This document shows, one piece after another, positions 8,641-61,565 of a DNA stretch of 64,000 nt. Numbering within the stretch: position 1 is the first letter of the stretch; every line of letters begins with the position of its first letter. This DNA is from Gracilariopsis chorda (taxonomy: Eukaryota > Rhodophyta > Florideophyceae > Gracilariales > Gracilariaceae). The translations under genes and the position numbers were made by a program. The notes beneath the pieces were generated by a model. It made no database searches. It saw nothing but the letters and a program-made list of their open reading frames with translations, and had not been told where the DNA came from. Where the stretch lies: positions 62,001 to 126,000 of the forward strand of contig NBIV01000064.1 of the NCBI GenBank assembly GCA_003194525.1, written 5' to 3'.

Positions 8641-10109
8641 CCGCTCCGTAATTTTGACCATCACAATGCGAGGTATTAACAAAACGGTGCCGTGCAGAGC
8701 GGATACGGCATCTGGTCTGGTCTCAAGCAGCCTGTTACGCGAAGCAAAGCTGTGTAGCTTCGTTAGTCCCAAAAGCCGCCAGGCTTTTACGAGCTGACAA
8801 TAATTCGAACGTAAGTCGAAGTGTCGGAAAGGTCGCGAAGGCGACCGACACAGACTATATGGTCGGCATCAGTAAAGGCAAGGCCTGCACTCGCAGAGAG
8901 GCAGAGCCTTAGTGCCCAGTGTCGTATTGCGTTGTTCCCCTCGTTAAGTGTAACTGCGCGTAAAGCTTAACAGGCCCGAAATATTACCAGGGGTTTTTTG
9001 GGGATGTTGCGCCGGGATCTGTGGAAAAGGTGTGATGCTAGCTGATTCTACGTTCTGAAATCGCCAAAAGCAAAGACGGCAGAGACAGTGGGATACTGCC
9101 AATGCTTCTGGGAGGGAAATATGCGGTACATGCAATCCGCCCTGTCGTGGTGGGCCCCTTATCTGGTTTTATATAGATTTCGAGAAGCTAGTAGCAAAGA
9201 AAAGCAGAAACAGGCGAAACGAGCCAAAAGGATACGCAATCGGGTACTCCCGCAGAAATTTACCGCTGATCTACTGTGTTATGGAATATTTGCCCGTGAT
9301 CGTAACATCGTTTCTGCAAGGCCATTGTAAGCAGTATTCATCGGCTATATTTAGGTTACAGAGAATTTGATCGATGTTCCGGGGCAGCGAGATTCTTTCT
9401 TGGTCAAGCACTGGCCACGGCCTTCGTTGCTTTCATGCGACATGGTAGCCCGTTCTTCTTCGAAGACTGTATTTAGGCCGCTTGACAAGATAAGACTTAC
9501 GAGGTGGGGTTAGAATCTATCACGCTTTTGGAAGTAAACTAATAAAATACTTAACGCCATCAAACTACCGTTGTACGTCTTCCGCAACAAACCCTACTCG
9601 CCGTGGTAGGAGTTAAAGCTTTACCCTCTGTCTTTCTCTGGGATCAAAGGTAACTCCAACCGTATCCAGACAAGAGCAAAATTTGATGAGCACATGGCGC
9701 GTTGTGAACACGCGACCGGGAGGCGAGTTATCAATCACGGGCAATGTCACACGGGGCGCTACGTCCAAAAATGCGAATCGTTGATTGGCTAAAAAGTCGA
9801 ATGTGCTCACGGCGCTTGAGTTCATTAAAAGAGCAACACATAATTTTGCTCTTGCTCGAAGTCACCCTCACTTGCATTTGGAATGGGTACGGTAATCTTG
9901 TCGTTCTCGACTCCAATAAAGCTAAAGCATCACCTCCCCTACCCAGCCAATTAAAAAATCTCTAACCCAAATTGCTCTAGCTGCTAACCAGCTGACATGG
10001 TTTCAATTATACTTGGAAGAAGCGAGCTTTTGTAATCCATTTCTTGTCCTTTGTAATTTGAAATGAGTTGAGTATACCGTTCCAAGAATAGCAGAACCGC
10101 TCCATTCTT

Positions 10110-10900
10110 GCTTATTGTCAGCTGCAAGTGGAGTGGGTCCAAAATTGCTCTATGAATGCTGACAGAAATGTAGTTTCTAATTGAAAGCAAAGCTGACAGG
10201 GACATTCGTATCTGATTCCAATCCAGTTCTTTTTGCGCACGCATCAGTATAAATACCGGCCCGTACTACAAGCTTCGCATTCTATTCATGTTGCTTCATC
10301 AAATGAACATCCTCATCCTTGTTTTAAAACCACCAAACTTCTTCGAAGTTCCTTTCAACGAATGAGAATTTTTCGATGAACCATTCCTGGTACGTAGGAT
10401 TTGTCCTTTGATGTATGTATTGACGTGTTTCTAACATTTCGCTCTTCCGATTCCAGCTTTTGTTGCGTTGTCTATGGAGTTTGTGGGCTCCGGAAGATTT
10501 CCCTCTCTCCATAGTTACAAAAGGGCTGTCGGAAAAATGGGACGTATGGGTACTGACAGCAAGCCCATCGGCAGCTGGAGAGAGGGATCCCGTCAGCTTT
10601 TGAATCGATTTCCGCGATTTCGAGCTGATCAGCGGGAAACTGCTGCCGATTGGGCTGGGAAATTTTCATCACACCACCTTCGGCTTAAGCTGGAGGTGTT
10701 TCTTTCTCTGTAACACGCAAGCACAACACCTCTATACAATATGTGCTCCTTGCTGTACACTACTTCATGCACATACAATCAAGCCCCGCGGATCTTTTTT
10801 CTGTTTATAACATGTACCATAACCGAAACTCGTACTAGCTTAATCTTACTTGCTTGTAGGTCATGTAGCTGTAACTTTTCAAAGCCCTTCCTCGTATTGT
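10110..10900 (+). other. TATA-driven spliced unit, copy C2
   Basis: Second copy of the unit at 4490-5310, inside arm A. The TATA box is at 10248-10255. The intron is 10390-10456 (67 bp), with donor GTACGT, branch-like CTAAC at 10431 and acceptor TTCCAG. The second exon holds an open frame from an ATG at about 10474 to a stop at 10711 (about 79 codons), basic and containing GTDSKPIGSW and REGSRQLLNRF. This copy is the most intact of the three. The opposite strand is also open over 10472-10672, so openness alone is weak evidence for translation. No homologue is recognised. Confidence 0.5.
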
Positions 10901-11525
10901 TCCTATTCGTTAGTCATACTTTCAACTATGCTTTTCATACCTGCATGTATCCTGATACTTGCTTGTTTGCTTGACATATATTCACTCAAAAGCGCCACCG
11001 ATGTTCTTCATGGCTATAAAATGAAACATGGCATTTGATTTCACGTTTTCTATCATAGTACATGCTTCAGCCTTGCTTTGTTGGTAGAATTTTTCACAAG
11101 ATCATGTCTTGGAACTCAATTGTTTTCTTTGGGGTTTGACTGAAGTTGAGCATTCACAACGCACATTGTCCGTGTCAATTGTTTATCGGAAACCATTCTT
11201 TGGGCCCAATCGCTAACAATTTGTGAAGTGATACAAAGACATGTGTAAGCTTCATTAAACTATTTCTTTCAGACTGTATTTAGAACATGATCTTTATATT
11301 GTTTGATTGGGTGCAGGACCTGGAGAGGCAATGAGCGTACTTCAGAGAGCCCGTTTAGTAGAACAAAAATACTCTGACAACATGTTCTAACAAGGCCGTT
11401 GCTTGCGGGGTGCGCAGAGGCAAGTTAACAAAGCTTGACTTGCAGAAAGTGGAAGCAGCTCTGGGCCAGTAGAGGTGAGAAAAAACTCGTTCTGGTGATT
11501 GAGAAACTGAGCAGAATGCTTCTGC

Positions 11526-11726
11526 TTAGCAAAATACGGTTGCATTTCCGTCGGTGTTGATATCGCCACCGCCGGCGATACGCAGGCTGGGTTTGAAGTG
11601 ATTCCGTTCATTCGCCAGAAAGAAATTGACTTTAACAAAACTACGCTTGCCTTCCTCTAGATCCAACGGATGGGTAATGCGTATAATCTTACTTTTTCGT
11701 TCCAAAACCAGCACACGTAGATACAT
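11526..11726 (-). CDS. small conserved open frame, 66 codons (arm A)
   Basis: A 66-codon frame from ATG (MYLRVLVLERKSKIIRI...) with a partner of identical length at 57862-58062 in arm A'. The two differ at about seven residues with no indels, which is a high rate of replacement for such a short frame and is compatible with drift. I recognise no family. It could be a small gene or a chance frame preserved by recent duplication. Confidence 0.25.
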   Translation of the reverse strand: MYLRVLVLERKSKIIRITHPLDLEEGKRSFVKVNFFLANERNHFKPSLRIAGGGDINTDGNATVFC

Positions 11727-11917
11727 TGTTTTTACGTCAAAACTCTTTGAAGGAATATTGCACGAGCTTTACATTACCTCAATTAAGAATAATTCCCTAG
11801 CTTGACTGGTAGAATCATCTTACAAGAACATAAGACGAGTAGAGCCGCGAGGGGAGCATAGGACATAAATGATACATATCAAGAATTTCACGGTCATATG
11901 CTTGTGCAGTTCCTCGA

Positions 11918-12256
11918 ATGAATGATTCACTTCGACCAACGGACAATAATCCGCAAAGATATGGTTACTTACGGTTCTTCCAGAACCTTCAAAAAGTTAT
12001 CAAGTGCTATACCGCCATAATACTACGAGTATCCAAAAGGCAATGGGCGGTGGTCTGTCAGTTTAGCAAAACATCACAGTTTGCGAGAGCAAATGCAGAC
12101 AAGCTATTACGCATATGTGCATGTGATTTCAAAGAACAAGAAACAGAGACGGTAGTATGGTTTACCCTTGGTACACCAGAACAGCGTTTTCTCTGCCGCA
12201 GTACGGACCAAAAAAGCACTAAAAACCATAGAGAGGGAGTATCGGATGGGACTTGA
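11918..12256 (+). CDS. conserved open frame, 112 codons (arm A)
   Basis: This frame starts at an ATG (MNDSLRPTDN...) and stays open for 112 codons. The mirror copy at 57332-57670 (minus) has exactly the same length, the same start and stop, and about 75 percent residue identity with no frameshift. The best-kept part is the C-terminal half (ICACDFKEQETETVVWFTLGTPE). Many of the nucleotide differences change residues, so purifying selection is not obvious. No family is recognised. It may be a small gene, or the remnant of a longer one carried by the duplication. Confidence 0.35.
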   Translation: MNDSLRPTDNNPQRYGYLRFFQNLQKVIKCYTAIILRVSKRQWAVVCQFSKTSQFARANADKLLRICACDFKEQETETVVWFTLGTPEQRFLCRSTDQKSTKNHREGVSDGT

Positions 12257-13513
12257 AGGGTTTGCTGACCGGGTGCACCGCTCTTGCGAAAAGGAAAGAT
12301 TGGTGAAAGAGTATCATTTCAAGAAGAAAATAGACCATGGATAACCTGGAAACGGAGGCGCTTATGCAATGCGCTGAAGTGCACAGATCGGTTTCATATG
12401 CGGTAAGGTCAGTGATGCACCTTTTCCTTCATTGAAGAAAGGAAAAGCTTGGTCCATACTGGGTTAAGGGATCATCATGTTCATGGGCCCAAGCGAGCTC
12501 TACAAGTTAGGGCACACGATTTCCGTCGTGGAGTGTCGACCTTACGTCAAAGGCAATCCAAATTGATCAGCGATTGAATATAGTTCGGGAAAGTTAACTT
12601 TCAGATCAGAGGCGCGCTTCGACCGAGACCAACATAACCGTTATGAGTCGGGAATAGATACATAGCGCTCGCAGAAGCGGAGGATATGTACAAAGGATCC
12701 CGCAGATGCTTCTGGGTACGAAGTTGCACCACAATGTAAGAGAAGCTCCTCTGCGTCACTTTCAGGAAACCAAACCGGCAAGCGCAAGTGATGGGAAAAG
12801 GATGCTTTATCTACTCTGGAAAGTCATCGCAATACAGAGACAGAAGCTTTTTGCTACAAGTACACAAATCACATGTTTCAAAGCTAAGATAGAAAGATGC
12901 GGGCCGTTCATTAAAACCAGTCTCTGATAGTACTTCTACCCAGTTTCAAGCTCGCCGTTCTCTCCTGCGCCAAGGTCCATCTGCATCAAACCTTCCCTGC
13001 TCTGCTTCCAAATGTGATCACGTACACACCGAACTCTCCATCACAAAACCACAGGCTTACTCTTCTTGATTTCGATAACGTCGCCGATCATCATTGGTGT
13101 GTACGGAAGCACGCACACGTGCTTCAACAATATTGAACTGTACAAGTGAGATAAAGTTATTTATCATTGCGGTAGACTATTTGAGTTGGAGTTTGGATTG
13201 GAAGCGGCCATGTCAAATTGGGTTTCAAATCGGGCGATTTCGGAGCGCGATTGTCCTGTGCTGGGTGCGTGAGCCTATCAAACACCCGCTGCGCAGGTGA
13301 GCTGTGTGACCCAAACGGTTTAACCGCGTTTCGATTCGACACTGCTAAGAGCGCCTTCCAGAACGCGTCTGCGCCGCACACGCTGTGGCGGACATGTCCG
13401 CCATGTCGCCCCCGTCGGCCACTGGCGTCTGAGACACCCGCCACCTCGTCGAAGCGCAACAGCGCCATCCGTGCTTCGTCGCATAGCATTCAAAGGATAC
13501 TCTCGAGCGCAAC

Positions 13514-13748
13514 ATGGCCTCGACAAGCAATACAACCACCACATCATCCTCCCAACAACAGCTTCTTCAAGCTATGCGCACCATTCCAAACTCAGGTCGA
13601 TGCATATTGTCACCATGCGCGCCATAGTTTGCAGCGCTGCGATCTTCTTCTGAATGTTATTGACGACGAAGCGACGCTTTGGCGTCAAGCCATTCAAATG
13701 GCTGGCTTGCAATCTCAGGCCATTGATTCTACGTTTACGGATGCTTAG
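13514..13748 (+). pseudogene. small frameshifted coding sequence, unknown
   Basis: From the ATG at 13514 a Ser/Thr/Gln-rich start (MASTSNTTTTSSSQQQLL) reads to about 13592. A different frame then gives a helix-like segment, QVDAYCHHARHSLQRCDLLL followed by NVIDDEATLWRQAIQMAGL, ending at TAG 13746. The two halves join only with a 1-nt frame change near 13590. A GC-rich upstream region (13200-13500) resembles a promoter or 5' UTR. Together they would make a protein of about 78 residues. I do not recognise it. It could be a decayed gene, an assembly error in a real small gene, or coincidence. Confidence 0.3.
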
Positions 13749-13749
13749 T

Positions 13750-15890
13750 GCTCTCATTGTGCATGATCTTGTGCGACAGCCTTCTGAAAAGACTCAGCTT
13801 GTTTCCCGGATCGATAGCTTGATTCACTAACTTGAACGCTACGCAGATGTTTGCTCGTGTCTATGCTTGTGACATGTTTCACGTTATGATTGAGCTGCAT
13901 GGAAACGACTCGCCGCACTACCTTCAATACCCGTCAGCATCTTCCCAAGTCCCTTTCGCGCACTTTGAAACATCTTCAGTTCGGCTCGTTCAACAATTCC
14001 ACCTTGTGACACTGCTGTATCTTCCAGCCATGTCGTGCTGCATCCTCCTTGCCAGTTAGCTGCTTGTGCAACGTCAGCTATTCTATCAACTCATATGCTT
14101 GCGGCCTGACATGCCCTTGCGCTTGCGCCACACTGGCGTGCAACTTCGTGGTAATCTGTTCCCACAACCTTGCTTTCCGCCCGTGACGAACTGTCACACT
14201 ACTCTTGCTTGTGCTCGGGAGAGCGGTTAAAGGGCTAATTGGTTACCTTTAGTAATAACGCAAACCTGGCGCAGCATCACTCATGATAGCTTACTTAATC
14301 ACTGGATCTATGTTTTGTGTTTCAATTATCCAACAAACAAGACACACCGAGGAAACGATTTGGCTCGGTCGACCATTCAGCTTTGCATTTGCACGCGTTT
14401 CAAAACTGTTTTCACTTCGTCTTACTACTTGCCTAGGTCGTTTCTTTCTATATGAGATCTGTTTGTCCGGGCTCATGCGAATCCTTGCGGTTTTGGTACG
14501 AACTTGCGCTCTCGATATCGTTCATACTGCTGCTCCCCGTAACCTTCCACCAAAGCGTGTACGTTTTGGCTTTCCTTTTCACGGTCAGTCCTTCAATAGA
14601 ATATGGTTTCTGTGGCTTGACGAAGAGTTTCAAGTTCGGTGAGCGCCTGTCATCACTGGTTTGGGTTCCATTCTTTCGTCTCTCAGAGTGAAGGGCGACC
14701 GTCTGCCTTTTCGATTACGTTCTTGCACTTGGCCCTTTGAAGTTTTGAGCGCCGGTGTATATACGTCCTTGTGGTTTTGGAGCAGTTCAGGCATCACAGC
14801 TTGAGGTATTCTGTCTCGTGCGCGCTAATACCCGATTCAGCGTTGGTGAATAGTTATTGGTGCTTAACTTTGCCATTCTCTCAGATTTTTTGTTATCAAG
14901 ATCCGGAATGTTGTTCAACTGGAGAATGCACCGACGAAATTGTTTAAGCGAAACCGTGCCACCTACTATCCGATGAGTGTATCAAGACTTTCCCCTCTGA
15001 GAAAGGATGGATGCAATGTTGATCAATTCCGGCCATTTCCTCTTGTCTTCAGAAGGTAAGCGTCGACCAAACAACATGGTTTTTATTTGTCATGGAGGAC
15101 GTTTTGGAGCCTTCGTCTGCCTATTGGCTCTTCCTCGTTGTGGTTGGGAGTTGAGGCCATGTGACATCGGGGTCTGAAAATGTCTTTTCATCTTGAGGCA
15201 ATGTGCTTGCTGTATGGAGTGAAATCGGGATTATCTACGAAGCAAACTTTCTCTCTAAAACCTTTCTTATTCATATACTTGAGAATGCGTTCCATGGTTT
15301 TGTGCAGTTAGTTCCTGACTAATTGCTTCATCTGTTCTTGAGGAGAGGGAGGAAAGCAAACTTCTGTTTGGCTGGAAGGAGAGAAGCGAACGTCACGTCG
15401 AAGATTGGGTAAAAAAAAACCAAGTTGCAGCCGACTACCACACGCGGAACGAATACAGTGAGATATATGACGCGCGCGAAGCTTTCTTCGATTCCCGACG
15501 TGTTCAACCCTCATCTCCCGATTGATGAGCTTACTTTTTGGGAACTATTTCACGGGGCATTAGTACTCTCAGAACTCTCCTCGGGAGTGTCGGAAAAAAA
15601 GAGAGCAATTAACGCACCGTTCTCGATTTATGACCAGCAATAACGTCCGGGATTCTCGTACGTTATCTCGCGCGGGTTATGATTACCGTTTGTTTTACTC
15701 GTTTCTGCCGTTTTTTTCTTCATATGTCATGCGTTTGCTATGCGGGGATTGACGTCGAGAGAGGAGATGAACTACCAATGGTGCCACTGACACATTCAGC
15801 ACGAGAGAATGCACTTTTGTCAATATGTGTTGCGCTGAATTGTGCTATGATTTATCCAAGGTGAGCACTAAACCCTCTCCATTCTGTCAG
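13750..15890. other. no gene recognised
   Basis: Spacer upstream of the CDCA7-type gene. Short frames such as 14283-14642 carry no recognisable domain. I see no repeat shared with the right-hand side of the window. Confidence 0.5.
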
Positions 15891-15897
15891 ATTTGTG

Positions 15898-15905
15898 TAT
15901 AAAAG
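15898..15905 (+). promoter_or_regulatory. TATA box upstream of the CDCA7-type gene
   Basis: TATAAAAG about 240 bp upstream of the ATG at 16147. The frame of the gene happens to be open across this motif, which makes the frame look longer than the gene. The ATG, not the upstream frame, is taken as the start. Confidence 0.55.
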
Positions 15906-16146
15906 CGGACTAGATACGACCCTTCCCCTTGAACTCAAAGGCAGTTCAGCAGTTGTGAAAGGGCAAGTGTTTTCCCCACGGAATCTCTCGAAACTAGTGA
16001 CTGCATCTTCTCGTCAAAGTTGCATTTGTGTTGTCCCTAACATATTGCCCTTTCGCACCTGTCAAACTCGAGGAGGACTTTGGAATCATCGCAAACAAGA
16101 ATCTTGCGTTCATTTTCTTTTTCATTTATACATTGGTTTACATATA

Positions 16147-18827
16147 ATGAGCGGAGATCAACCACTTCGTCAACCTGCATGGGCACCGGGATTTCCGAAC
16201 GTTATTCCCAGTGTTGGTACTCAAGGAAGACTACCCAGGCATGTTGGTAACCCGTTCTACACGCAGATCCCCCCCTCCGTTACCGCTGGCATTCTAAGCA
16301 CGCCGATGAATGCGGTTAATCCTGCGGATCGCGTTCACCTACCTTTTAACGAAAGTCAGAGCTACGAAACCAGGCCGGAGCTGTTCGGACTAGGATGGGC
16401 TTCTGCAGGGCCGAGTCCGACAAAGGAAGCCGTCGTATTACCCGGCACAAGCGGTGTTCTGGATGGAGCTCAATTTGTTAGGGATGAGTCTGGTGCACTT
16501 CGAAAGCCAACAGCAAATGGCTTGGTGCAAAGATTTGACCAGGCGCAACAGAAGAATCTGGGATCATCGGCCGTTGCGCCGCAACAGAATTGCCCACCGC
16601 ACATCTCCACCTCTGCGTTGAACGCGATGAGTGCTCTGGCACATGGAGCATTTTCAATTGGGCCTCAGGACATTGGCGGATTATTGGGGATCGCTCAAGC
16701 CGCTCAAGACAACACTGTATTTAATACAGGTCCTGGCGTCCAACGCTTGCCTGCCGTAGGCAATGTGAATGCCCCCGCCCTGGAATCTCTTGAAAACCCC
16801 GTTGGAAGCGCTGCCGGGAACATTAGGGCTGATCTGGTCGAAGGTGAGCCCATCGCTGCCGGAGGGATCGAGAGGGCTGCGACGCAAGGGGAAGATGTGC
16901 AACCCACTGCAGGTATTGGGTTTGAGGCGGCGCAAGCATGGGAACATTTGCTGGCTGTCAACGCTGATGAAGTCGCGTTACAGAACCCGGGTGGTGCCGC
17001 CGGGCAGTACGACGCACCTTTGCCATATCAAGGGTTTGTGAATGCGGGAGGAGCCAAGGCGACCGTGGTCAACACTAGCGCACGTGAGGCAGGCGGCGTT
17101 CACTATGCTCACCAAGACATGCTGCACGATAACTTGCGAGTGGCTTTGGCTGAAGCAAACGTGTCGCGGCCCATGGTCATTGATGCTGGCGGGAAGGCGA
17201 CCCCAGCCGAGGCCGGCGGGACGTGCCCCAGGCCACTAGGTATTGGAACATCACCTACAGATCCAAACTCATCGGCAGTTGGCGGCTCCTCTCTTGCCGG
17301 CACGCCGAGCTCACAGGTGGAAGAGGGGCATGGGACACCGTCGAAAGGGCAGGCCGGGCCAAGTTCGAGCGCGAGGAAGGCGCGCAGGGTGGACGGTGGA
17401 ATCTCGAAGGCCGGCGGGACTGGACGGCGCCAAGAAAAGCGGAAGCCAAGAACTTATTCGCAAGCCGTGCCAAGTCAGCACTGTCACATATGCTCCCGCC
17501 GGCCGACGACGAATGCTCCCCATATGGTGTGCGGCAATCTACTGCAAAGCCGGTGCCGGAAGACCATCTGCACAAAGTGCTTCGAGAGGTATAACTGGGA
17601 CCTCGAAGGAGCTAGGAACGCAGAAGCTGGGACGTGGGTTTGCACCCACTGTCGCGGAGAATGCCCAGCTCGAGCACAGTGCGTGATCTACAACAGGACG
17701 TCGGACCGGCGGCGCATGAAGCTGATCAACCATCGGAAGAAGAGGGGAGCTGGGAATGGTGGAGCAGAAGGTGGAAAGATGTTGCCGGTGGCGGGATCAG
17801 ACCAAGGCCCGGATAATGGAGTTGTTGTTGGCAGCGCAGGGCCCGCACGCTTGGCGAGCCCCACTCCCGCTTTGTCTGTCGGCTCGACAGCGGTTGAGGC
17901 CACGGGCAGCGGGCATGTCGTGGCGGGTGGCAGCAGGAAGGCGGGAAGCTCCAAAAAACGAATCGGTGTGGACGCTGGGGGTGGAACGGTAGTGTTGGGA
18001 AGAGCTTGGGGGCCGGGAAGAACGAAGGCAAGATACGCAAGGGCGGGCGGAAGGGCGGTAGCTCAAGCAAAGTGGTTCTGGCGCGAACCAGACAGGAATT
18101 CATTCGGCAGATGAAGATGCACAGTGGGGACCTGCAAGAAATGGTTCGACACGGTGGTGCGGTCCCCCAGCCATCTGACGAAGAAGGTGCAGCATTACCG
18201 CTTGGGGATAGTGGTGTTGATGGCGGCGCCGAGACAGAACGCGCAGAGAGGTCGCGGTTGGAAGAGCAGGTGCAGAATGGTGATGAAGCAGCGGAAGATG
18301 GGGTGGAAAGAAAGAGCCTAGGTGGTTTGGATGGCAGCGGCCTTGTGGCGGAAAAGTTTGATGGGGAAGCGGAAGCGGCCAAGGACGGAGTGCTGGAGGC
18401 TCTCGAGCGACTTGTTAGAGAGGCTGAAAGCGGTGAGGTTGGCCATGGCGGAGCTATAGGAGACTCGCTTGATATTTTGAGCGGGACCGGTGAGCCGGAC
18501 AAGGATCTGTCGGCAATGGTGAGAAGCCTAGCTGGGGAGGGGGGCGATGGAGCGGATGATGGGTGGAATCTTGACAGGTGGTTGATCAATACCGCGCTGG
18601 CAGGAGCAGATGGTAGCGGGGAGCGCGGCGGGGATGGGGGTTTGGCGGAGGAGCAGACGCGGGCAGCTGGCGTTGCGGAGCACTACAACGTCGTTGGCGG
18701 CGGGGTGGAGGAGTGGTTCGGTGTCGGTGACGGACGCGAAACGGGCAACTGGGACGGCGTCGACGCCGAGGGCGTTGACCCCAATGACGTGGCCGCGCTG
18801 CTGCACTCGACAGATCCTTTGGTTTGA
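16147..18827 (+). CDS. CDCA7-type zinc finger (zf-4CXXC_R1) protein, frame break near 18000
   Basis: The start is the ATG at 16147 (MSGDQPLRQPAWAP). Residues 1-440 are low-complexity, rich in Gly, Ala and Pro. A cysteine-rich domain follows at about 445-525: HCHIC, a CGNLLQSRC segment, CRKTICTKCF, WVCTHCRGEC and a final CVIYNRTSDRR. This spacing fits the zf-4CXXC_R1 domain of CDCA7-family proteins, which in animals and plants bind DNA/chromatin with the remodeler HELLS/LSH and support DNA methylation. The first frame stops at 18112. An acidic, Gly/Glu-rich frame overlaps it and runs to TGA at 18827, ending DPNDVAALLHSTDPLV, which looks like the true C-terminus. Joining them needs a -1 shift in a G-rich stretch near 17980-18010. 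No GT...AG intron with a CTAAC motif is evident, so a sequencing or assembly indel, a real mutation, or an undetected intron are all possible. The domain call is firm; the exact ends are less so. Confidence 0.75.
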
Positions 18828-18829
18828 TC

Positions 18830-19189
18830 GCTCGCGATGTGTCTTATCACATTTTCTTGTGAAGAATGTAAAGCTATTAGTTGTACCGCACGGTCACGTG
18901 GACAGCGTGATCAGCAGTTCGGACTGGCGGGGCGTGTTGCGACGCCACAAGTGTCCTGACGCTGGTGGACGCTTTTCGTGCGTCTGCGAGATGCGCCGTG
19001 TGACGACTGAGCTAAAGGAAGTGCCACAGCCAGGACATCGAAGGGGCGGATACGGCTGTACTTATAGCGAGTTCCCACACGCCGCGATGAGCTGCGGCGT
19101 ACCCTACGTTATACCCGGCTACAGCGGCGAGCACACCACAACCCGCGGCGCTGGCGTCTGAAATGCGAGCTGGTTCGCTGAAGAACAGA
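18830..19189. other. short spacer, nothing recognised
   Basis: GC-rich sequence 3' of the CDCA7-type gene, before the boundary of duplication segment B. I see no gene. Confidence 0.5.
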
Positions 19190-19566
19190 CTGCCCATTTG
19201 ACGATCTGTATAGATAGTGCACCGAACAAGTTGTCCTTTGACGATAAAATCGATCCATGGCCAAGGTTACAGATGCGGAGGGAGAATCATCAGATACCTC
19301 AAAGGAATTACTCAGCGAAGTGAGGGGATGGGACACTTTGAGAACTATTGAAGATACACCCAGTAGGTGTTGACCAAGTGGGTCGAACACAACACCTCAC
19401 TTGAAACTGTTATTTAACTTGCTTTACATTGTTCATCAATAAGAAACATCTATGGCACACACCTTAGGAGAAGTCGTCTCTAAGCGAAACTGTCACAGCT
19501 CATAACAGAATGCAGCTGAGTTCCACTCTACCGAAAATCTGGGATCTTCAAACAACGCCGCCACGC

Positions 19567-20244
19567 TCACTTGATTTTCTGGATCAAGAAGCGGCCCACA
19601 ATACGGCCCTGGAATCGATCAGTCTCGTCTTCCACCAATGGCGCAATGTTCTTCTGCGGCTCTGTCGGCATGTCAAGCGAAGCGTCCACAGGGCTTGTGA
19701 ACTCGCGTCCGTCGTCAGTGCCCGCGTCATACGCAATCATAGTTCCGGAGTCGCGAGTAATGAACTTTCCGTCGCGAACCATATTCCTGTTATTGATCTG
19801 CACAATCCAGTCAGGTGACGGGGCAATCATTCCTAACATCGTAATGAACGGGTGCGCACAGTCAACCGTGTAAAACAGTGTGGTGGACTTTCCGGGCATC
19901 GTCGGTCCCTTGGCAGACGCCACGCTCCGTACTCCGCGACGCTGTCTGCGCAGGTTCTTGGCCAGAGCCACGAATCGTCCGTTCTGACCTGTCTCGGCGA
20001 TCTGCTCCACTTGCGGAGAGGCGAAGCCGCGGATGGTCAAGAAGGAGATACGGTTGGAGTGAGAAGCACCAGCCAACGGGGAGAACACCAAGCCATTGTC
20101 CGGGATGAGCTTACCAAAGTTCGCCGGAGTCAACAAATTCCGAAACGTGACTTTGTAGATGGCTTTGCCTCTGCAACGTCTTTCAGCTGCAACCGCTTGG
20201 AACAGAGCGAGGGAGAGCAAGAAGGCGGTTACTTGATGAATCAT
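19567..20244 (-). CDS. secreted spondin-domain protein (copy in B)
   Basis: 225 residues from the ATG at 20244. Residues 1-20 form a signal peptide ending AVAA before ERRC. The rest is one spondin_N domain: CRGKAIYKVTF near the start, FSPLAGASHS at 54-63, MIAPSPDW at 139-146 and YDAGTDDGREF at 172-182, which are hallmark segments of the family. Cys24 and Cys129 could pair. In animals this domain occurs in F-spondin; it also occurs in small secreted proteins of microbes and algae, where its role is unknown. Presumably extracellular. The protein is identical to that at 48062-48739; I count about eight nucleotide differences over 678, all silent. A third, diverged paralogue lies at 42958-43635. 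A TACTTAAGCGC element lies about 111 bp upstream of the start. Confidence 0.88.
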   Translation of the reverse strand: MIHQVTAFLLSLALFQAVAAERRCRGKAIYKVTFRNLLTPANFGKLIPDNGLVFSPLAGASHSNRISFLTIRGFASPQVEQIAETGQNGRFVALAKNLRRQRRGVRSVASAKGPTMPGKSTTLFYTVDCAHPFITMLGMIAPSPDWIVQINNRNMVRDGKFITRDSGTMIAYDAGTDDGREFTSPVDASLDMPTEPQKNIAPLVEDETDRFQGRIVGRFLIQKIK

Positions 20245-38717: not shown

Positions 38718-38719
38718 CC

Positions 38720-48739: not shown

Positions 48740-49112
48740 GCGTGACGGCGTTGTTTGAAGATCCCAGATGCATGGTATCGTGGAACTCAGCTCCATTCTG
48801 TTATGATCTGTGACAGTTTTGCTTAGAGACGACTTCTTCTAAGGTGTGTGCCATAGAAGCTTCTTATTGATGAACAATGTAAAGCAAGTTAAATAACAGT
48901 TTCAAGTGAGATGTTGTGTTCGACCCACTTTATCAACATCTACTGGGTCTACCCTCAATAGTTCTCGAAGTGCCCCATCCTCTAACTTCGTTGAGTGACT
49001 CCTTTGAGCTATTTGATGATTCTCCCTCCGTACCTGTACCCCTGCCCGCGGATCGATTCCATTGTCAAAGGGCAACTTGTTCGGTGCACTATCTATACAG
49101 GTCACCAAATGG

Positions 49113-50330
49113 GCAGTCTGTTCTTTGTCCTCAGAGTGACTTGACCACGCGCAATGGAAGCACGTATGAGATGCAGTCGCAGAGCCATTAAGGATACATT
49201 GTCATAAAAAGAGCACCACTGGTATGGGTACAAATCACGCCAAACCGAAAGAGAAAGCCATTCCAATGTATGGCGATGGGTTCTCTCGTTTGCGACTTCA
49301 CCGTATACGAGCCTCTCAAGCGATCCAGCATTATCTGGAACAGGGAGAATCTGCATAGAAGCCACGTCGCAAGTCGAACTGGGGAATGCTGGTTAATAAT
49401 CTTCTGGACTCAGCAGATGGAGGAGAAAGAGCCCTTTAGAAACGCAATTGGTATTGGCCACACTTGAAAGACGACGAGCACCTTGAAAACACTGAACTGC
49501 TTTCAAGCATGCTGAAGATTAGGACTGACGCATGCAAACTGCGTGCTCAACACGAGGACTTCGACATTCGGCAGTAGAGAACATGTGAAAATATTATGGA
49601 AGTTAGTCGCGACATGTTCGATGATCTTGTGCTCTTGTATGAGTAGTAGAGAATACCCTTAAACTATCCCCGAGAGGGTATTATCAACTGAAAGGGAGGG
49701 TTGATGGCAGGCCCTTTACACTACCTTTTTGACGCCAGGCTTTGTTCATGGGGACATCGTCTGCTGGGCATTCGGCGAATATCTGTTGATCATTGTAACC
49801 CTTTAACCATGCTCTCAGCACAAATATCGCCCACAATCAAGTCATCGTAACATGGTAACCCTTTAGCCTGCCACGGTAGAAGTTCAAAGGCGGCTGGACT
49901 GCCGGGTGGTGTTCGTCGCACCTCCCATGGGCCCTTTGCGGACAAGGTCCGCCAAGTTCATGCGGTATCCAGCAATACCAAACAAGAACAAAAAAGTAGG
50001 AACGTCCGTCATCAAAGGCCTTCGACAAGCCAGTGTTAGCGGTCTGCTAGCCGTTTTGCAATCTACCTATGGTATCCACGAAGGTCAGGCACAGGACTCG
50101 TGTGACCTGCCGCAACACGCCGCCTGTGACAGGAGCGGTGTTGCCATTGGGTGAACCAAATCCTGCGCAATAGAGCGATGAAAAGGGTCACGCCTCCAGA
50201 ACGTTCAAAGAACTGAGGTCCTGCGTGCCTCCAAATTCATGCACTTTGCGCGATAGCTCCAGCCAATCAGCGAACCAGCTGGCATTTCAGCCGCCAGCGC
50301 CGCCGGTTGTGGCGTGATCGCGGCCGCCGC
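49113..50330. other. no gene recognised
   Basis: Spacer between B' and the WD40 pseudogene. Two direct copies of GTAACCCTTTA lie 60 bp apart (49796 and 49856). Nothing coding is recognised. Confidence 0.5.
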
Positions 50331-50334
50331 GGGG

Positions 50335-53060
50335 TATTATAAATTATAACACACCGTCGTCTAGCGGGGAGGAGATTAGCTCCATCGAGGAGGTGGGAGG
50401 CACAGTCTCTCACCTCCCGCCTCCTCGGACGCGATGTCAAGTCAGCCTTAGAGTCCGAAAGGCTCTGGGGCGGTATTGGAGTGGGGAAGAGTAACGGCTT
50501 TTCGTCTTGGCGGCGTTGGGAAAGACGCTGATGTCCGTTTCGCTATCGTTGTGAACGATCTCCCGGATGCAGTGGCAAAGACTTTGTGGAAACAAGTAGC
50601 GTCATCAACAGGGACACTCCAGCGGTTCTTGAGGCGTCAAGTGAAGATATCTCGCTATTACCGGGAGCTGAACAATCAAAATGCGCTGAGCGACTACGTC
50701 TGCAACTTACGGTCAGAAGAAGAGAACACCCTGCACGCAAGTGCAGGTCGGAATGGTTCTTACCGCACACTGCAAGTGGTGGCTGACAGCTCTGTCGAAG
50801 TGTTGAAGACGAGCGAAGAATTCAATAAGATGTTTGAAGAGATGTTTCGCACCGAATGTCTTCCCGTAGCAGTACAAGGTTAGCGGTCTAGTGCTGCAGA
50901 AGTGGGGACCTGGTCGAGTGGCGAGGAGCTACGGAAGTTGTTGAGACTGTAGACGAAGTGTCAATTGTGCAGATGACAGGGGTATGGAATTTGTTTCCTG
51001 TCCAGTCTTGCGGTATGGCGTTAGATATTGCATCACGGACGCCTCCGAGAGGAGCGAAGGATGAAAGCTGGTTTACAAGTATGGTTAACCGAGAAGCAGT
51101 ATGGGAAAGGCCCTTTGGTCACAAACAACCTTGGCGACGAAATACATTTGCGTCGACGAGATTGAAACAGAAGGAGGAACGGGTTAAGAGAAAAGAGGTA
51201 TTCTTGTTCACATCGTGCTGGGAATTCGAAGATGAGGGGCTTAACGTATGTCAATCTGTCCCGAGATCTGCGAGGAACCAGAAATGCTAATGATTCTCGT
51301 CGCTTTTTAGAAAGAGCACAGTGGATTGTGATGTGTCTTCAGAGCAGCGGAATTCATGGCGCAGAAAATGATGTAGGATAGGGATGCGAATGGCAAGGAA
51401 GAACAGAAACCAGCACACACTGATAGGATACGTGGTTTTTGCAGATAGTGCAGCTGGTGGGATTAGCAGGTTATATTGCAGAGAATATGCGCAAAGCCTG
51501 TTATCAAATATGAGGGCGAATGGTATAGTATTCACAACTCTTGAAGGAACTCAGAATGTTCGCTTCAAGGATTGATGAACAAGCGCCTGTACCAGGTGTA
51601 AGACTTTGATTCATTTCTTTCACGAAGCAGAAGGCGCAGTGTTGGGAATTGTTGGAATTGATCGTCGTAATGATTGCCAATCGGTGAAGATGTGATGAGG
51701 ATACTTTGTGATGGTTGGGATGTGTGGGTTATTTTCTTGGGTGGGGCGTTCGGAGCGCGGAAGATGCAGAAGGTAGTTTCATGCCGGCATGTTGGGGATG
51801 CATCTAGGGGACGTTTTACACATGCCGCTGAGAAATTATTGAACTGCCAGATTTGTTGAAGGGAGTCGTGATGAAGGAACGGCGTTGTATGGCAAAGATC
51901 ACGGACAAGCGCATGTTATGGATACGCGCGCTCTAAAGGTCGCCGGAAATCCGTTCGACGCTCTTCAGGCAGCTGGAGACGTGCGAGATTTTGCTGTGAG
52001 TTCTGATGGAACAGAGATTGTTGGTCACAGTGAGGAATCAGAAGAAAGTTTCATTTAGGTTTGGGACAAGGTGACGTCGTCGCAGCGCCACCTGGAAGGC
52101 AGCATTACCATTTGTAACCTGTTTGGCTATCAACAGTAACGTAGACCCAGTCTTGAAATGATATACTGCTGAGTTGGAACGTGGACATTGCTGAATAGTA
52201 CCTGTGGACATTGGAGGGCAGCAGGAAGTTGCCACCGCGTGTTGCCATGAGTGGGGACGGGGAAAGAATTGTCTTTGTATCGAACGACGATGTCGTTCGT
52301 GTATGTGACGCAGAAACGGTCAAGTGATCTGAGAACCTAGGAGAGGGAGCATGAGCTTTCAGACAGTGTTCTTGTGAGTCAAGATGGAAAGGAGGTTGTG
52401 AACACTGTTTTAAGATATGATTCGAGTGTAGATGGTTGAGACCATAACCGCTGCGCAATTTGTCCTGACGGTGTTATTCGTGTGTGGGACGCGAACTGCC
52501 GTGCGCCTGTTGGTCATCCTCTTTCACGTGTCGTTGGAGAAGTAACTCTTTTCCTTTAGTTCCGAGTCACAAAACGTAACGTATCCAAACCCACTCTTGT
52601 TGCAAGTAACGGTGATAGATCGCGAATCATATTCTGTCTATCGGGAAATCGACGACTGTGAGATGTGGACAGGGGAGGCTGTGGGACCGCCTCCCAATCG
52701 ACACATACGTCGGATACGGAGTAAAGCATTCAGCCATGTTTGGAAGAGACTGGTCTCTGGATCACAGGGCCATATGGCCCGCAATTGGCACGTCAAGACC
52801 GGAGAAGCTACCGGTCACCATTTTCAGTTGCCAAACGGAAGTGGTGGTATGGAATTGACCACGAGATGTGGCGGGTTGTTTCGCACTACGGCGAGGGTTT
52901 TGGACAGCAACGGGACGTGACGCGCGGGCAGTGTGTGAAGACGAGTTTAATTCTTCACTACCATTGCTTCGTGAGGTACTGGCTCTAGGGGAGATGTTTG
53001 CCTTTCGCCCGTATCTACATTGTTCGATGTTCTCACCCTTTGATAGGGTAGTAAGATAAA
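50335..53060 (+). pseudogene. WD40-repeat protein pseudogene (NACHT/NB-ARC-WD40 type suspected)
   Basis: A TATAAATTATAA stretch at 50343-50354 precedes a series of plus-strand coding fragments broken by many stops and frame changes. 50476-50883 gives about 135 residues of charged sequence with a GGVGK segment that may be a lost P-loop. From about 51960 onward several WD40-like units are readable: AVSSDGTEIVGHSEES near 51990, AMSGDGERIVFVSNDDVVRVCDAETVK near 52242 (read in two pieces), CPDGVIRVWDANCRAPVGHPL near 52457, and KRLVSGSQ...WHVKTGEATGH near 52745. The D-G-x-x-I/V and V-W-D/V-C-D patterns are those of WD40 blades. Tandem WD40 blades after a nucleotide-binding domain are typical of STAND-class proteins; here the N-terminal class is inference. 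At least five breaks make it non-functional. Confidence 0.6.
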
Positions 53061-54606: not shown

Positions 54607-54898
54607 CATTACTAGAATACTCAGTATACTAGTCAACAGAGCGAACGGCTGGCAATGCTATTTTAGAGATAAGATGGTCTGGCTTTTAATGTATGTTCTA
54701 TTACCCTCCCATCCGAAGAGCGACTCAAAGTATGCTTCATGCAACGTCTCTACGCTAGTAATTGTACCAAACATTTCTGGACTTCTAACTGGAGGAGAAG
54801 TGTAAAGGAATTGAAAGTCCACTCTTTCGTAGAGTAGTGGTGGCTACTGATTTGTGTAGACTTTGAATAAATGGATCTGACCTCCCAATTGCAACTGT

Positions 54899-55768
54899 TT
54901 AGGCGACACAGAGAACTTCGTACGTAGTGGCACCAATTTCCTTGCCTCCGTATGGGAAAAGCACTCCACCATGAGACTTGATCATCTTACCGGGCACCTT
55001 AATACCCTCATGATCAGCTCTGCCGACAAACTCAGGCTCGCCGCTACTGGTCTTGCCACCAACAACAGCATTTGGAGGAATTTCGCCCATGCTGGCCTGC
55101 ACCCAGGTCACTTCAATGCCGGTAGGATTGGTGAGCACCTCGTAGGTGAAGAAGCTGTTCTCCTCTCCTCCCCACGGAATAAAAGCACCTCCAGCTTCCT
55201 TGACCATTTTGCCGGGCGTCAGTTCACCTCCGATCTCAGCTCGTGCCACATACACCTTGTTTCCATTCTTCTCCTCTCCACCTTGAATGGCACCTTCCGG
55301 CACGTCGCCCCTGCTGGCCTCTTTCCATGCAAACGGGTATACCAGGACTTCATATGTAGTGGCGCCAACTTCCTTTCCTCCGTACGGGAACAACACTCCC
55401 CCATGAGACTTGATCATCTTTCCCGGTACCATAATGCCCTCATGTTCAGCTCTACCGACGAATTCCGGTTCACCGCTCTTCGTTTTTCCTCCAATAACAG
55501 AGGAATCAGGAACGCTGCCCATTTGACCAGGCTCCCATCTGAGTTCAATGTTCTTGGGGTTGGTTAGCAGCTCATATGTGAAGAAACTGTTTTCCTTTCC
55601 ACCCCAGGGGATGAAAGCGCCACCAGCCTCCCTGACCATCTTACCAGGAGTGAGTTCTCCGCCAATCTCTGCGCGAGCGACGAAGACCTTGTTTCCGTTT
55701 TTCTCCGTTCCGCCCTGCACAGCGTCATCGGGGGCGGCGCCATTGGTAAAGGTTTTCCACAGAGACAT
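54899..55768 (-). CDS. DM9-repeat (DUF3421) protein with four repeats
   Basis: 289 residues from ATG at 55768 (MSLWKTFTNGAAP). Four DM9 units of about 70 residues alternate in two types: one with NGNKVFVARAEIGGELTPGKM and FIPWGG.ENSFFTYE (units 1 and 3) and one with SGEPEFVGRAEHEGIMVPGKM and FPYGGKE.GATTYEVL (units 2 and 4). Units 1-2 and 3-4 are about 75-80 percent alike, indicating an internal tandem duplication. There is no signal peptide or membrane segment. DM9 proteins of insects, molluscs and other eukaryotes are cytosolic or secreted and some bind mannose, acting in recognition of microbes; a lectin role here is inference. A TATTTAAG TATA-like motif lies at 55861-55868, about 93 bp upstream. 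No intron visible. The frame is clean, so the gene is likely active. Confidence 0.9.
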   Translation of the reverse strand: MSLWKTFTNGAAPDDAVQGGTEKNGNKVFVARAEIGGELTPGKMVREAGGAFIPWGGKENSFFTYELLTNPKNIELRWEPGQMGSVPDSSVIGGKTKSGEPEFVGRAEHEGIMVPGKMIKSHGGVLFPYGGKEVGATTYEVLVYPFAWKEASRGDVPEGAIQGGEEKNGNKVYVARAEIGGELTPGKMVKEAGGAFIPWGGEENSFFTYEVLTNPTGIEVTWVQASMGEIPPNAVVGGKTSSGEPEFVGRADHEGIKVPGKMIKSHGGVLFPYGGKEIGATTYEVLCVA

Positions 55769-55860
55769 TTTAGGTAGGTTGACTGAAGATGAAAGTATGA
55801 AAGGCAGATGGATGCTGAAGAATGAGGGGGAGTAGCAAAGCGTGGGATGATGTTTGTGTG

Positions 55861-55868: not shown

Positions 55869-56459
55869 CTGGGGTGAGGAAGGGTGAAGCCCATTTGTTC
55901 ATGTGTACAACAGGCGAAGGTTGGTGGTAGCCTTCCCTCAGCGAGGGTGCGAAGGCTGAGCAATCTTACACTTGCAATAAGAATGCTCTCAGCCATTGCA
56001 CTGAATAACTGTACTCATGCTTCCAAAGTAAGAGCAGAACATTAGACTCGGTAGTAGAAAGCAGAAGTGGACTGATAGCTACAAGATGAATAAGAATAAA
56101 GAAGAGCGAAGTCAGCAAAGCCTTGTGTCACACACGGAGGGAGATAAAGGGCTGTTACATGACGCAATTCCTCCGTAATTTAGGTACAGTTGGTGGTATG
56201 AAAGAAGGGCAACCAAGAGTTCAACAGGATGGTGGCCCGTGATGCTGAAGATTTCTCTGCTATTTCACTGTGGCTAAACGTCGTTCGAGCATGACCAAGT
56301 TATCCAGCACGGGCACTGCGTCAAGCTTCTTGGAGCGTTTCACTCGAGCCAGGCACCACAGCACCTTCAGCACACGAAATCAAATCAGTCGTACGGTACG
56401 GCTGTGCGGCTCCGAGTGTCAGCGCCAACGAAAGCACATGATGTTTGCTTCCACCCCAA
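55869..56459. other. no complete gene recognised
   Basis: Spacer between the DM9 gene and arm A'. A plus-strand frame (56270-56542) runs into the arm and ends KHVCVLPYTPMMIGDV...KPVVL. The arm A copy has the same C-terminal 28 residues with few changes on its minus strand (about 13040-13126), but everything upstream of it differs. It may be the tail of an old gene split at the duplication breakpoint. Confidence 0.4.
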
Positions 56460-57331
56460 AGCACGTGTGCGTGCTTCCGTACACACCAATGATGATTGGC
56501 GATGTTTTCGAAATCAAGAAGCGTAAGCCTGTGGTTTTGTGATGGAGAGTTCGGTGTGTACGTGATCACATTTGGAAGCAGATCAGGGCAGGTTTTGATG
56601 CAGATGGTGCTTGGAGCGAGAGAGAACGTCGAGCTTGAAACTGGATAGAAATACTATCAGAGACTGGTTTTAGTGAACGGACTGCGTCTTTCTATCTTAG
56701 CTTTGAAATCCCTGATTTTTGTACGTGTAGCAAAGAGCCTCTGTCTCTGTATTGCGATGAATTCCAGAACAGATAAAGCATCCTTTTCCCATCACTTGCG
56801 CTTGCCGGTTTGGTTTCCTGGAAGTGACGCTGAAGAGTTTCTCTTACATTGTGGTGCAACTTCGTACCCAGAAGCATCTGCGGGATCCTTCGTACCTATT
56901 CTCCGCTTCTTTTATGTGAGCGCTAGGTACATACTCACGACTCATAACAGTTATGTTGGTCTCCGTCGGAGCGCGCCTCTGATCTGAAAGTTAACTTTCC
57001 CGAACTATATTCAATCGCTGATCAATTTGGATTGCCTTTGACGTAAGGTCGACACTCCACGACGAAAATCATGTGCCCTAAAGTGTAGAGCTTGCTTGGA
57101 CCCATGAACATGATGATCCCTTACCCCAGTATAGACCAAGCTTTTCCTCTCTTCAATGAAGTAAAAGGGGCATCACTGACCTTACCGCTTATGAAGCCGA
57201 TCCGCGCACTTCAGCGCATTGCATAAACGCCTTCGTTGCCAGATTATCCGTCGTCTATTTTCTTCTTGAAATGATGCTCTTTCACCAAGCTTTCCTTTTT
57301 GCAAGAGCGGTGCACCCCGTCGGCAAACCCT

Positions 57332-57670
57332 TCAAGTCCCATCCGATCCTCTCTCTCTATGGTTTTTAGTGCTTTGTTGGTCCGTACTGCAGCAAAGAAA
57401 ACGCTTTTCTGGTGTACCAAGGGTAAACCATACTACCGTTTCTGTTTCTTGTTCTTTGAAATCACATGCACATATTTGGAACAGCCCGTCTTCATTTGCT
57501 CCCGCCAACGGTGATGTTTTGCCAAACTGACAGACCACCGCCCCTTTCGTTTTGAAGACTTGTGATATCATGACGGTATAGCACCTGATAACTTTTTGAA
57601 GGTTCCGGAAGAACCGTAAGTAACCATATCTTTGCAGACCATTGACCATTGGTCGAAATGAAACATTCAT
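57332..57670 (-). CDS. conserved open frame, 112 codons (arm A')
   Basis: Mirror copy of 11918-12256 with identical length, start and stop and about 75 percent residue identity. The C-terminal part ICACDFKEQETETVVWFTLG is unchanged. No family recognised; see the arm A entry for alternatives. Confidence 0.35.
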   Translation of the reverse strand: MNVSFRPMVNGLQRYGYLRFFRNLQKVIRCYTVMISQVFKTKGAVVCQFGKTSPLAGANEDGLFQICACDFKEQETETVVWFTLGTPEKRFLCCSTDQQSTKNHRERGSDGT

Positions 57671-57861
57671 TAGAGGAACTGCACAAGCGTATGACCGTGA
57701 AATTCTTGATGTGTATCATTTATGTCCTATGCTCCCCTCGCGGCTCTACTCGGCTTATGTTCTTGTAAGATGATTCTACCATTCAAGCTAGGGAATTATT
57801 CTTAATTGAGGTAATGTAAAGCTCGTGCAATATTCCTTCAAAGAATTTTGACGTAAAAACA

Positions 57862-58062
57862 ATGTATCTACGTGTGCTGGTTTTGGAACGAAAAAGCAAG
57901 ATTATACGCATTACCCATCCGTTGGATCTAGAGGAAAGCAAGCTTAGTTTTTTTAAAGTCGATGTCTTTCTGGCGAATGAACGGAATCACTTCAAACCCA
58001 GCCCGCGTATCGCCGGTGGTGGCGATATCAACACCGACGGAAATGCAACCGTATTTTGCTAA
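57862..58062 (+). CDS. small conserved open frame, 66 codons (arm A')
   Basis: Mirror copy of 11526-11726, same length, beginning MYLRVLVLERKSKIIRI and ending GGGDINTDGNATVFC, with about seven replacements between. Unknown; may be a chance frame. Confidence 0.25.
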   Translation: MYLRVLVLERKSKIIRITHPLDLEESKLSFFKVDVFLANERNHFKPSPRIAGGGDINTDGNATVFC

Positions 58063-58679
58063 GCAGAAGCATTCTGCTCAGTTTCTCAATCACCAGAACG
58101 AGTTTTTTTCTCACCTCTACTGGCCCAGAGCTGCTTCCACTTTCTGCAAGTCAAGCTTTGTTAACTTGCCTCTGCGCACCCCGCAAGCAACGGCCTTGTT
58201 AGAACATGTTGTCAGAGTATTTTTGTTCTACTAAACGAGCTCTCTGAAGTACGCTCGTTGCCTCTCTAGGTCCTGCACCCAATCAAACAATATAAAGATC
58301 ATGTTCTAAATCCAGCCTGAAAGAAATAGTTTAATGAAGCTTACACATGTCTTTGTATCACTTCACAAATTGTTAGCGATTGGGCCCAAAGAATGGTTTC
58401 CGATAAACAATTGACACGGACAATGTGCGTTGTGAATTCTCAATTCAGTCAAACCCCAAAGAAAACAATTGAGATCCAAGACATGATCTTGTGAAAAATT
58501 CTACCAACAAAGCAAGGCTGAAGCATGTAATATGATAGAAAACGTGAAATCAAATGCCATGTTTCATTTTATAGCCATGAAGAACATCGGTGGCGCTTTT
58601 GAGTGAATATATGTCAAGCAAACAAGAAAGTATCAGGATACATGCAGGTATGAAAAGCATAGTTGAAAGTATGACTAAC

Positions 58680-59480
58680 GAATAAGAATAATACGAGGAA
58701 GGGCTTTGAAAAGTTACAGCTACATGACCTACAAGCAAGTAAGATTAAGCTAGTACGAGTTTCGGTTATGATACATGTTATAAACAGAAAAAAGATCCGC
58801 GGGGCTTGATTGTATGTGCATGAAGTAGTGTACAGCAAGGAGCACATATTGTATAGAGGTGTTGTGCTTGCGTGTTACAGAGAAAGAAACACCTCCAGCT
58901 TAAGCCGAAGGTGGTGCGATGAAAATTTCCCAGCCCAATCGGCAGCAGTTTCCCGCTGATCAGCTCGAAATCGCGGAAATCGATTCAAAAGCTGACGGGA
59001 TCCCTCTCTCCAGCTGCCGACGGGCTTGCTGTCAGTACCCATACGTCCCATTTTTCCGACAGCCCTTTTTTAACTATGGAGAGAGGGAAATCTTCCGGAG
59101 CCCACAAGCTCCATAGACAACGGAACAAAAGCTGGAATCGGAAGAGCGAAATGTTAGAAACACGTCAATACATACATCAAAGGACAAATCCTACGTACCA
59201 GGAATGGTTCATCGAAAAATTCTCATTCGTTGAAAGGAAGTTCGAAGAAGTTTGGTGGTTTTAAAACAAGGATGGGGTAGGTCGTTTGATGAAGCAACAT
59301 GAAGAGGATGCGAAGCTTGTAGTACGGGCCGGTATTTATACTGATGCGTGCGCAAACAGAACTGGATTGGAATCAGATACGAATGTCCCTGTCAGTTTTG
59401 CTTTGAATTAGAAACTACATTTCTGTCAGCATTCATAGAGCAATTTTGGACCCACTCCGATTACAGCTGATAATAAGCAA
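58680..59480 (-). pseudogene. TATA-driven spliced unit, copy C3, nonsense in the exon-2 frame
   Basis: Mirror copy of C2. The TATA box is at 59333-59340 and the intron at 59132-59198 (67 bp), both intact. In the second-exon frame the Tyr codon that follows PSLHS in C2 is TAA here (59070-59072), from a single base change. If that frame is translated, C3 is a null allele; if the unit is non-coding, the change is neutral. Confidence 0.5.
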
Positions 59481-60520
59481 GAATGTAGCGGTTCTGCGAT
59501 TCTTGGAACGGCATACTAAACTCGTTTCAAATTCGGGTTAAAGGTTTTTCAAGTGGTTGGGGAGGAGAGGTGATGCTTCACAGGACTCGAGAACGACAGG
59601 GAAGATAATCGTACCCATTCCAAATGCAAATGGGGGCGACTTCGATCAAGAGGAAACAAATGTGTTACTCATTTAATGAACTCAAGCGCCGTGAGCACAT
59701 TCGACATGTTTAGCCAATCAACGATTCGCATTTTTGGAGGTAGCGCCCCATGTCACATTTCCCGTGTTCACTACGCGTCATGTACTCATCAAATTTTGCT
59801 CTTGTCCGGGTACCGTTGGAGTTACCTTTCATCCCAGAGAAAGACGGAGGGTAAAGCTTTAACTCTTAGCACGGCGAATAGGGTTTGTTGTGGAAGGTGT
59901 ACAACGGTAGTCTGATGGCATTAAGTATTTTACTGGTTTACATCCCAAAGAGTGATAGATTCTAATCCTACCACGTAAGTCTTATCTTGTCAAGCGGCCT
60001 AAATACAGTCTTCGAAGAAGAACAGACTACCTTGTCGCACGAAAGCAAAGAAGACCATGGCCAGCGTTTGATCAGAAAAGACCCTTTCTGCCACGAGACA
60101 TCGATCACATTCACGGTAACCCAAAAATAGCCAATGAATACTGCTTACTCTCACGGATATATATTCACAGTAGAGGAGCGGTAAATGTCTGCGAGACTAT
60201 CCGATTGCGTATCCTATGGCTCGTCTCGCCCGTCTTTTGCTTTTCTTTGCTACTCGCTTCTCGAAATCTATACAAAGCCAGATAAGGGGCCCATCATGAC
60301 AGGGCAGATTGCATGTACCACATACTTACCTCCCAGAAGCATTGGCACTATCCCACCGTCTCTTCCGTCTTTGCTTTTGGCGATTTCAGACGGTAGAATC
60401 AGCTAGCAACACACACACAGAGATCCCCGCGAAACGTCCCCAAAAAATATCCTGGTAAGATTTTGGGCCTTATGAGATCAGACCAGATGCCGTGTCCGCA
60501 TTGCACGGCACCGCTCTATT

Positions 60521-61560: not shown

Positions 61561-61565
61561 GTTAG

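Follow-up and report, generated by a model that had tools for sequence, protein, structure and literature searches.

We analysed a stretch of 64,000 nucleotides from Gracilariopsis chorda (hereafter the window; positions 62001-126000 of contig NBIV01000064.1, termed C64), in which three sequence blocks, A, B and R, stand to the left of a core of housekeeping genes and recur to its right in mirrored order and orientation. Extra copies of the blocks are present elsewhere in the assembly, and identity between the two arms is a mosaic. Our preferred explanation, with a probability of about 0.62, is an old inverted duplication of an A-spacer-B-R unit flanking the housekeeping block, followed by gene conversion, insertion and deletion. 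The structure is of a known and ordinary kind, messier than first described. All readings given here come from one assembly of one genome (91.3 Mb in 1081 contigs).

Mirrored arms on either side of the core

When the two halves of the window were compared by self-BLAST at E<=1e-5, ten matches were obtained, all of them inverted (10/10), and six of these lie on a common axis; dinucleotide shuffles of the right half (n = 20) gave no match in any of the 20 trials. The six on-axis pairs are (i) an outer tip of 59 bp (8667-8725 and 60473-60531; 83%), (ii) the A-edge (8972-9973 and 59530-60470; 80.8% with gaps counted, 87.3% ungapped), (iii) block A and its counterpart A' (10055-13124 and 56459-59533; 94.5%), (iv) a B-tip of 71 bp (19111-19181 and 50267-50337; 86%), (v) block B and its counterpart B' (19181-20865 and 47425-49125; 94.7%), and (vi) R2 and the inverted R copy R3 (21264-23462 and 44574-46765; 82.6%), which enclose the core (23463-44573). 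Left members are assigned to the plus strand and right members to the minus strand, except for block B, assigned to the minus strand in both arms, with a Spondin_N open frame at 19567-20358 (minus) in B and at 47948-48739 (plus) in B'. Together the mirrored blocks amount to about 8 kb. Pair midpoints fall at 34.02 kb (R), 34.15 kb (B), 34.72 kb (B-tip), 34.79 kb (A), 34.74 kb (A-edge) and 34.60 kb (outer tip), so that all six anchors are mirrored in order and orientation about 34.0-34.8 kb. The four off-axis matches, also inverted, are R1 with R3, an a-type copy (4464-5072) with A', a Spondin_N paralog, and a match of 99 bp. Outside the arms lie R1 (1694-3524, plus strand), a further direct copy of R, and a1 (4464-5313, plus strand), a paralog about 72% alike to the first part of A.

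The sequence-only reading had proposed nested A, B and R blocks arranged about one axis, and the self-BLAST indeed gives all three block pairs in inverted orientation and mirrored order. Its sizes for the two long spacers also agree with our block borders (A-B, 6.06 kb; B'-A', 7.33 kb), but the short ones measure 0.40 kb rather than 0.73 kb (B-R2) and 0.66 kb rather than 0.98 kb (R3-B'). Block order is collinear between the arms, while the spacers differ and the outer part of R is only about 72% alike. Blocks A (3.07 kb, 94.5%) and B (1.7 kb, 94.7%) have the features of segmental duplications, being low-copy, longer than 1 kb, at least 90% identical and in opposite orientation; their matches in the same genome, short ones included, number 10 for A and 15 for B.

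Identity mosaic and probable gene conversion

Profiled in 250-bp steps, identity between the arms varies from 70 to 99%, below the >99% expected of palindrome arms. Within A it stands at 96-99% over 10.25-11.75 kb (98-99% at 10.5-11.5 kb, 88-96% elsewhere in the block), at 88-93% over 12.0-13.0 kb and at 96% in the last 125 bp, the A-edge giving 84-89%. Block B is 96.8-99.2% alike over 19.5-20.75 kb, dropping to 87-90% at either end. For R2 and R3, the outer half gives 70-77% (about 72% over 21264-22250) and the inner half 91-97% (about 95% from 22.4 kb), and R, previously treated as one block, holds as a pair yet is not homogeneous. Taken ungapped, inner R, A and B are each 94-95% alike between the arms. 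Across some 1.2 kb common to the R copies R0, R1, R2 and R3, R2 pairs with R3 at 43 two-against-two sites, against a single site for another pairing; R2 and R3 therefore belong together. In the outer part of R, these two are 72.6% alike and R1 is 61-65% alike to either.

The longest runs free of differences (219 bp in A plus A-edge, 252 bp in B) exceed those of all 2000 of 2000 random placements. Two humps of high identity stand out. Differences specific to the right arm amount to 19/1560 (1.2%) inside the A hump (10315-11876) versus 106/1508 (7.0%) outside it, and to 8/1090 (0.7%) inside the B hump (19563-20659) versus 50/478 (10.5%) outside; neither hump was reached in any of 200 shuffles, for which a coarser search grid was used. 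The GC content is 42.3% in the A hump versus 44.9% in its surroundings, and 54.8% versus 45.8% for the B hump, but the latter contains a gene.

Humps of this kind could arise either by exchange between the arms or by constraint. Constraint alone predicts fewer differences among the left copies inside a hump, and block B shows more (26/1090, 2.4%, inside; 6/478, 1.3%, outside), which supports conversion there. The contrast between right-specific and left-left differences in B is strong (Fisher 2.5e-10; 4.6e-4 with clusters within 5 bp merged) and comes mostly from sequence lying upstream of the gene. At these sites the window arms agree with each other and not with the other left copies, and 3 substitutions separate the two arms over 20245-20660, upstream of the presumed ATG. 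Part of this upstream signal may stem from other left copies entering a different R lineage at that point. In A, the left copies differ at 15/1560 positions (1.0%) inside the hump and 35/1508 (2.3%) outside, a drop in the direction that constraint predicts, though smaller than that of the right arm. The nucleotide patterns thus make arm-to-arm gene conversion likely in B and possible in A, and the earlier suggestion of conversion between the arms stands for the former more firmly than for the latter.

Alternatively, the same duplication may have occurred with no conversion at all, the centres of A and B having stayed alike by constraint while the rest drifted. The Spondin_N proteins of B and B' are identical from the presumed ATG, the open frame showing 8 synonymous and 0 nonsynonymous differences between the arms (dN 0, dS 0.051), and older Spondin_N paralogs have a dN/dS of about 0.12; the lower left-left difference within the A hump also agrees with constraint. 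On the other side, the window arms resemble each other upstream of B as closely as they do in the open frame, and left copies differ there. As for A, none of the open frames tested in A and the A-edge (10 in one Pfam search, 1 in another) reached a Pfam cut-off (best E 0.073), and the 17 arm differences over 10355-11554 are spread 7:5:5 over the three positions. We consider duplication without conversion unlikely; it competes only with the conversion part of our explanation, so that the odds of the two overlap.

Several observations weigh against an old duplication later patched by conversion. The outer part of R (about 72%) is flanked by stretches of 95% identity, which implies either a different age for it or a neutral divergence other than 12%; it does not fit the one duplication, of uniform age for all blocks, that was initially envisaged. 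The A contrast is weak (Fisher 0.034; 0.26 with clusters merged), and the A yardstick is effectively one pair, A0 and A1 having 0 substitutions between them. More generally, the yardstick of left copies is drawn partly from poor contig ends, the borders of the humps were chosen by fitting, and purifying selection could by itself explain the hump within the B open frame.

Spacers, further copies and the origin of the arms

The left spacer contains a segment (13325-18998, plus strand; 749-aa open frame at 15865-18114) that finds a match of only 70 bp in the right arm. Copies are present at C64:5878-11937 and on contig C251 (99%), and on C181 (93% for the main piece, 88-89% for two short pieces). 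The C181 match does not appear in the genome searches made with A and B, and in 2.4 kb of C181 flank the similarity to C64 stopped at the ends of the segment. Either a gain by the left arm or a loss from the right one could explain where the segment is found. It had been labelled as carrying a CDCA7-type gene, and its open frame does contain a cysteine-rich stretch reminiscent of CDCA7; the frame drew no Pfam match with E set as high as 1, nor did the cysteine-rich stretch alone, searched at E up to 10, give any match at a cut-off. A WD40 pseudogene proposed for the right spacer fared similarly, as 10 open frames from 49.1-54.3 kb returned one match, to a beta-propeller model, at E 0.073, far below the cut-off. 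The DM9-repeat gene of the same spacer (54879-55827, minus strand) was borne out (Pfam E 6.6e-105). Pfam tests were run on single open frames, a subset of the 328 frames of at least 70 aa listed. The DM9 gene has a 98% copy at C64:182475-183423, 65 kb away, with dN about equal to dS over the open frame, the differing upstream end included; the neighbouring Spondin_N genes are just 83% alike.

Two further differences between the arms involve dispersed sequences. An element of about 241-246 bp (8726-8971 by its junctions with the arm, 8733-8973 for the 241 bp that recur in the genome) lies in the left arm only, and the right arm is uninterrupted at 60470/60473; of the 41 matches to 8670-9800 (40 of 73 candidates scored), 36 fall on it. 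On contig C308 (46885-92741), 10 listed copies of the element recur at a spacing of about 5,040-5,080 bp, as if a unit of about 5 kb were repeated there in tandem. Conversely, about 1.14 kb at 49126-50266 is present on the right and missing on the left. The part 49126-50067 has 99% copies on contigs C130 and C68, whose adjoining 230 bp match left B (19181-19410) at 87%, and because the two parts adjoin on both contigs we infer that 48896-50067, at the border of B' and the spacer, is one element. Another dispersed element (60694-64000) starts about 160 bp past the right arm and has 15 near-full-length copies at 79-85% among 51 matches listed (40 of 54 candidates scored).

The arms are an inverted pair, but not a private one, since the left arm is part of a multi-copy cluster comprising the head of C64, C251 and the R copies. 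Within C64, of which positions 1-256000 out of 339,463 were covered by the self-comparison, C64:1-14249 repeats window 7239-21488 at 98.8% identity, with an R copy and an a-type copy coming next. On contig C251, R is followed by A, the left spacer and B, which reach to the very end of the contig; A, spacer and B (98-99%) stand in left-arm order, but R lies before A and not after B. Ahead of these, C251:111074-114312 corresponds to window 1-3569 (96-97% alike) but lacks the insertion 518-851, and C251:102780-108332 matches C64:54457-59995 at 88%. The C251 end thus runs collinearly with the left side, with an interval from R to A that is about 6 kb shorter, the join lying where a-type and A-type sequences are about 76% alike; it has the look of an exchange between a-type and A-type sequence, or could be a misjoin. 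We also considered that this end is simply an allele of the C64 region. Its collinearity with parts of C64:54.5-82.8 kb at 88-99%, with about 6 kb missing, and its lack of the insertion fit an allele, but a 2-kb piece (C251:95-97 kb) is only 73-74% alike to C64:1-256000. The insertion itself (518-851) resembles a solo LTR, with TG...CA ends and 5-bp flanking repeats (by eye), and has 12 further copies at 93-96% among the matches listed.

Contig ends affect how these copies are to be counted. C64:1-7600 shows 0 substitutions against the window over 7579 aligned bases but 32 gap events, 28 of them of a single base and many in short single-letter runs, whereas another near-identical pair on C64 (98.0% alike) aligns over 949 bp without a gap. 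Compared with C64:10436-13516, the final 3 kb of C251 has 19 single-base gaps and 7 substitutions. Because gaps occur there without substitutions, we read C64:1-7600 as what looks like an unpolished contig end inside the repeat, and the C251 tail has the same appearance; C64:1-7600 may be a separate copy, or it may in part be an artefact in which a stretch of the window's own copy was used twice.

This raises the possibility that the right arm, or its join to the core, is itself misassembled in a repeat-rich region, given that C64 and C251 both end inside the repeat and that C64:1-7600 repeats the window in the manner just described. The arms, however, are about 5% apart in substitutions and differ by large insertions, so neither was built by copying reads of its counterpart; on each of C4, C258 and C156 the core Spondin_N paralog is joined to the same R edge, though about 750 bp lies between them in the window; and C251 has A, spacer and B in left-arm order on a separate contig. 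While these points do not bear on how A' and B' are oriented relative to the core, we regard such an artefact as very unlikely.

The same three contigs carry 4.1 kb with a GCN5-like gene and a Spondin_N paralog, 93% alike and adjoining about 245 bp of the R edge. In the window, the R edge stands beside the core Spondin_N paralog on the right only, about 750 bp away, and because three other contigs join that paralog to the same R edge, the right arm appears the likelier ancestral position. The 93% match covers window 39662-43801 (GCN5-like and Spondin_N genes), and the approximately 750 bp from the paralog to R3 (43802-44550) is missing on C4 and C258. Genome searches with queries above 10 kb failed to list the window itself, so that their counts may be low.

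Finally, the blocks may have been duplicated serially at different times, with the mirrored order arising in part because a direct array was inverted once or twice, and with no single inverted duplication. Further units of R, A-type and B-type in direct orientation occur on C64 and C251, the outer part of R is about 72% alike as against about 95% for the inner part, and Spondin_N-like sequence is found at 9 further places beyond the A-B-R units among the 15 matches to B. Against this, six anchors, short tips included, keep one mirrored order, and inner R, A and B have nearly the same ungapped identity. We judge serial duplication improbable, and return to an old inverted duplication with later insertions and losses, which fits the six anchors, the left-only element and the 1.14-kb right-only piece, but leaves the outer part of R unaccounted for. 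Under it, the arms would have drifted apart by 12% or more; one arm would have gained or lost the segment earlier labelled CDCA7; elements would have inserted and a 1.1-kb piece been deleted; and ectopic gene conversion would later have homogenised the middle of B, and perhaps of A, leaving the identical stretches of 252 and 219 bp.

The core and comparable structures

The core contains genes for a Tim17-family protein (26278-26967, minus strand), V-ATPase subunit E (28155-28859, minus), an AAA+bromodomain protein (29207-33652, plus), a type 1 methionine aminopeptidase (36001-37128, plus) and a GCN5-like acetyltransferase with a bromodomain (40284-42200, minus), together with the Spondin_N paralog (42928-43635, plus). 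The five housekeeping proteins mark the DNA as eukaryotic. The GCN5-like protein and the methionine aminopeptidase were compared against PDB. Rfam, searched at gathering scores, gave no matches in the window and 11 other loci. A second copy of the whole core was not listed in the genome search, which did not list the window itself either, and no sign of core inversion was seen in the single assembly. That the 21-kb core flips orientation in the population, with conversion keeping the Spondin_N pair protein-identical on both sides, seems to us highly doubtful.

Tandem gene-family clusters undergo unequal exchange. The present locus resembles them in its several direct copies of R and of A-B units and in the C251 join of an R0-type to an A-type stretch, at about 76% similarity, but differs in that one unit is inverted across unrelated housekeeping genes. 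Among the nearest documented cases are inverted segmental duplications that mediate inversions in humans, such as HsInv0209, which is treated as a polymorphic inversion whose breakpoints probably fall within 782 bp of 99.9% identity (PMC3961182). Both structures consist of two inverted multi-kb copies, about 94% alike on average, with duplicated genes and a shorter stretch of much higher identity, but here the longest difference-free stretches are those of 219 and 252 bp, and the assembly shows one orientation. Mammalian sex-chromosome palindromes are described as having arm identities above 99% and arms GC-richer than their flanks (PMC8981503). Inverted arms and signs of arm-to-arm gene conversion are common to both; unlike in the palindromes, identity here approaches 99% only in the middle of A and B, GC content is not raised in the A hump, and the B hump is GC-richer but gene-bearing.

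The locus offers a clear example of an inverted duplication decaying, possibly patched by conversion, and a warning that the number of copies counted in a cluster of this kind is sensitive to contig ends. Were the core to invert, a block with genes for V-ATPase, a Tim17-family protein, methionine aminopeptidase and a GCN5-like protein would exist in both orientations.

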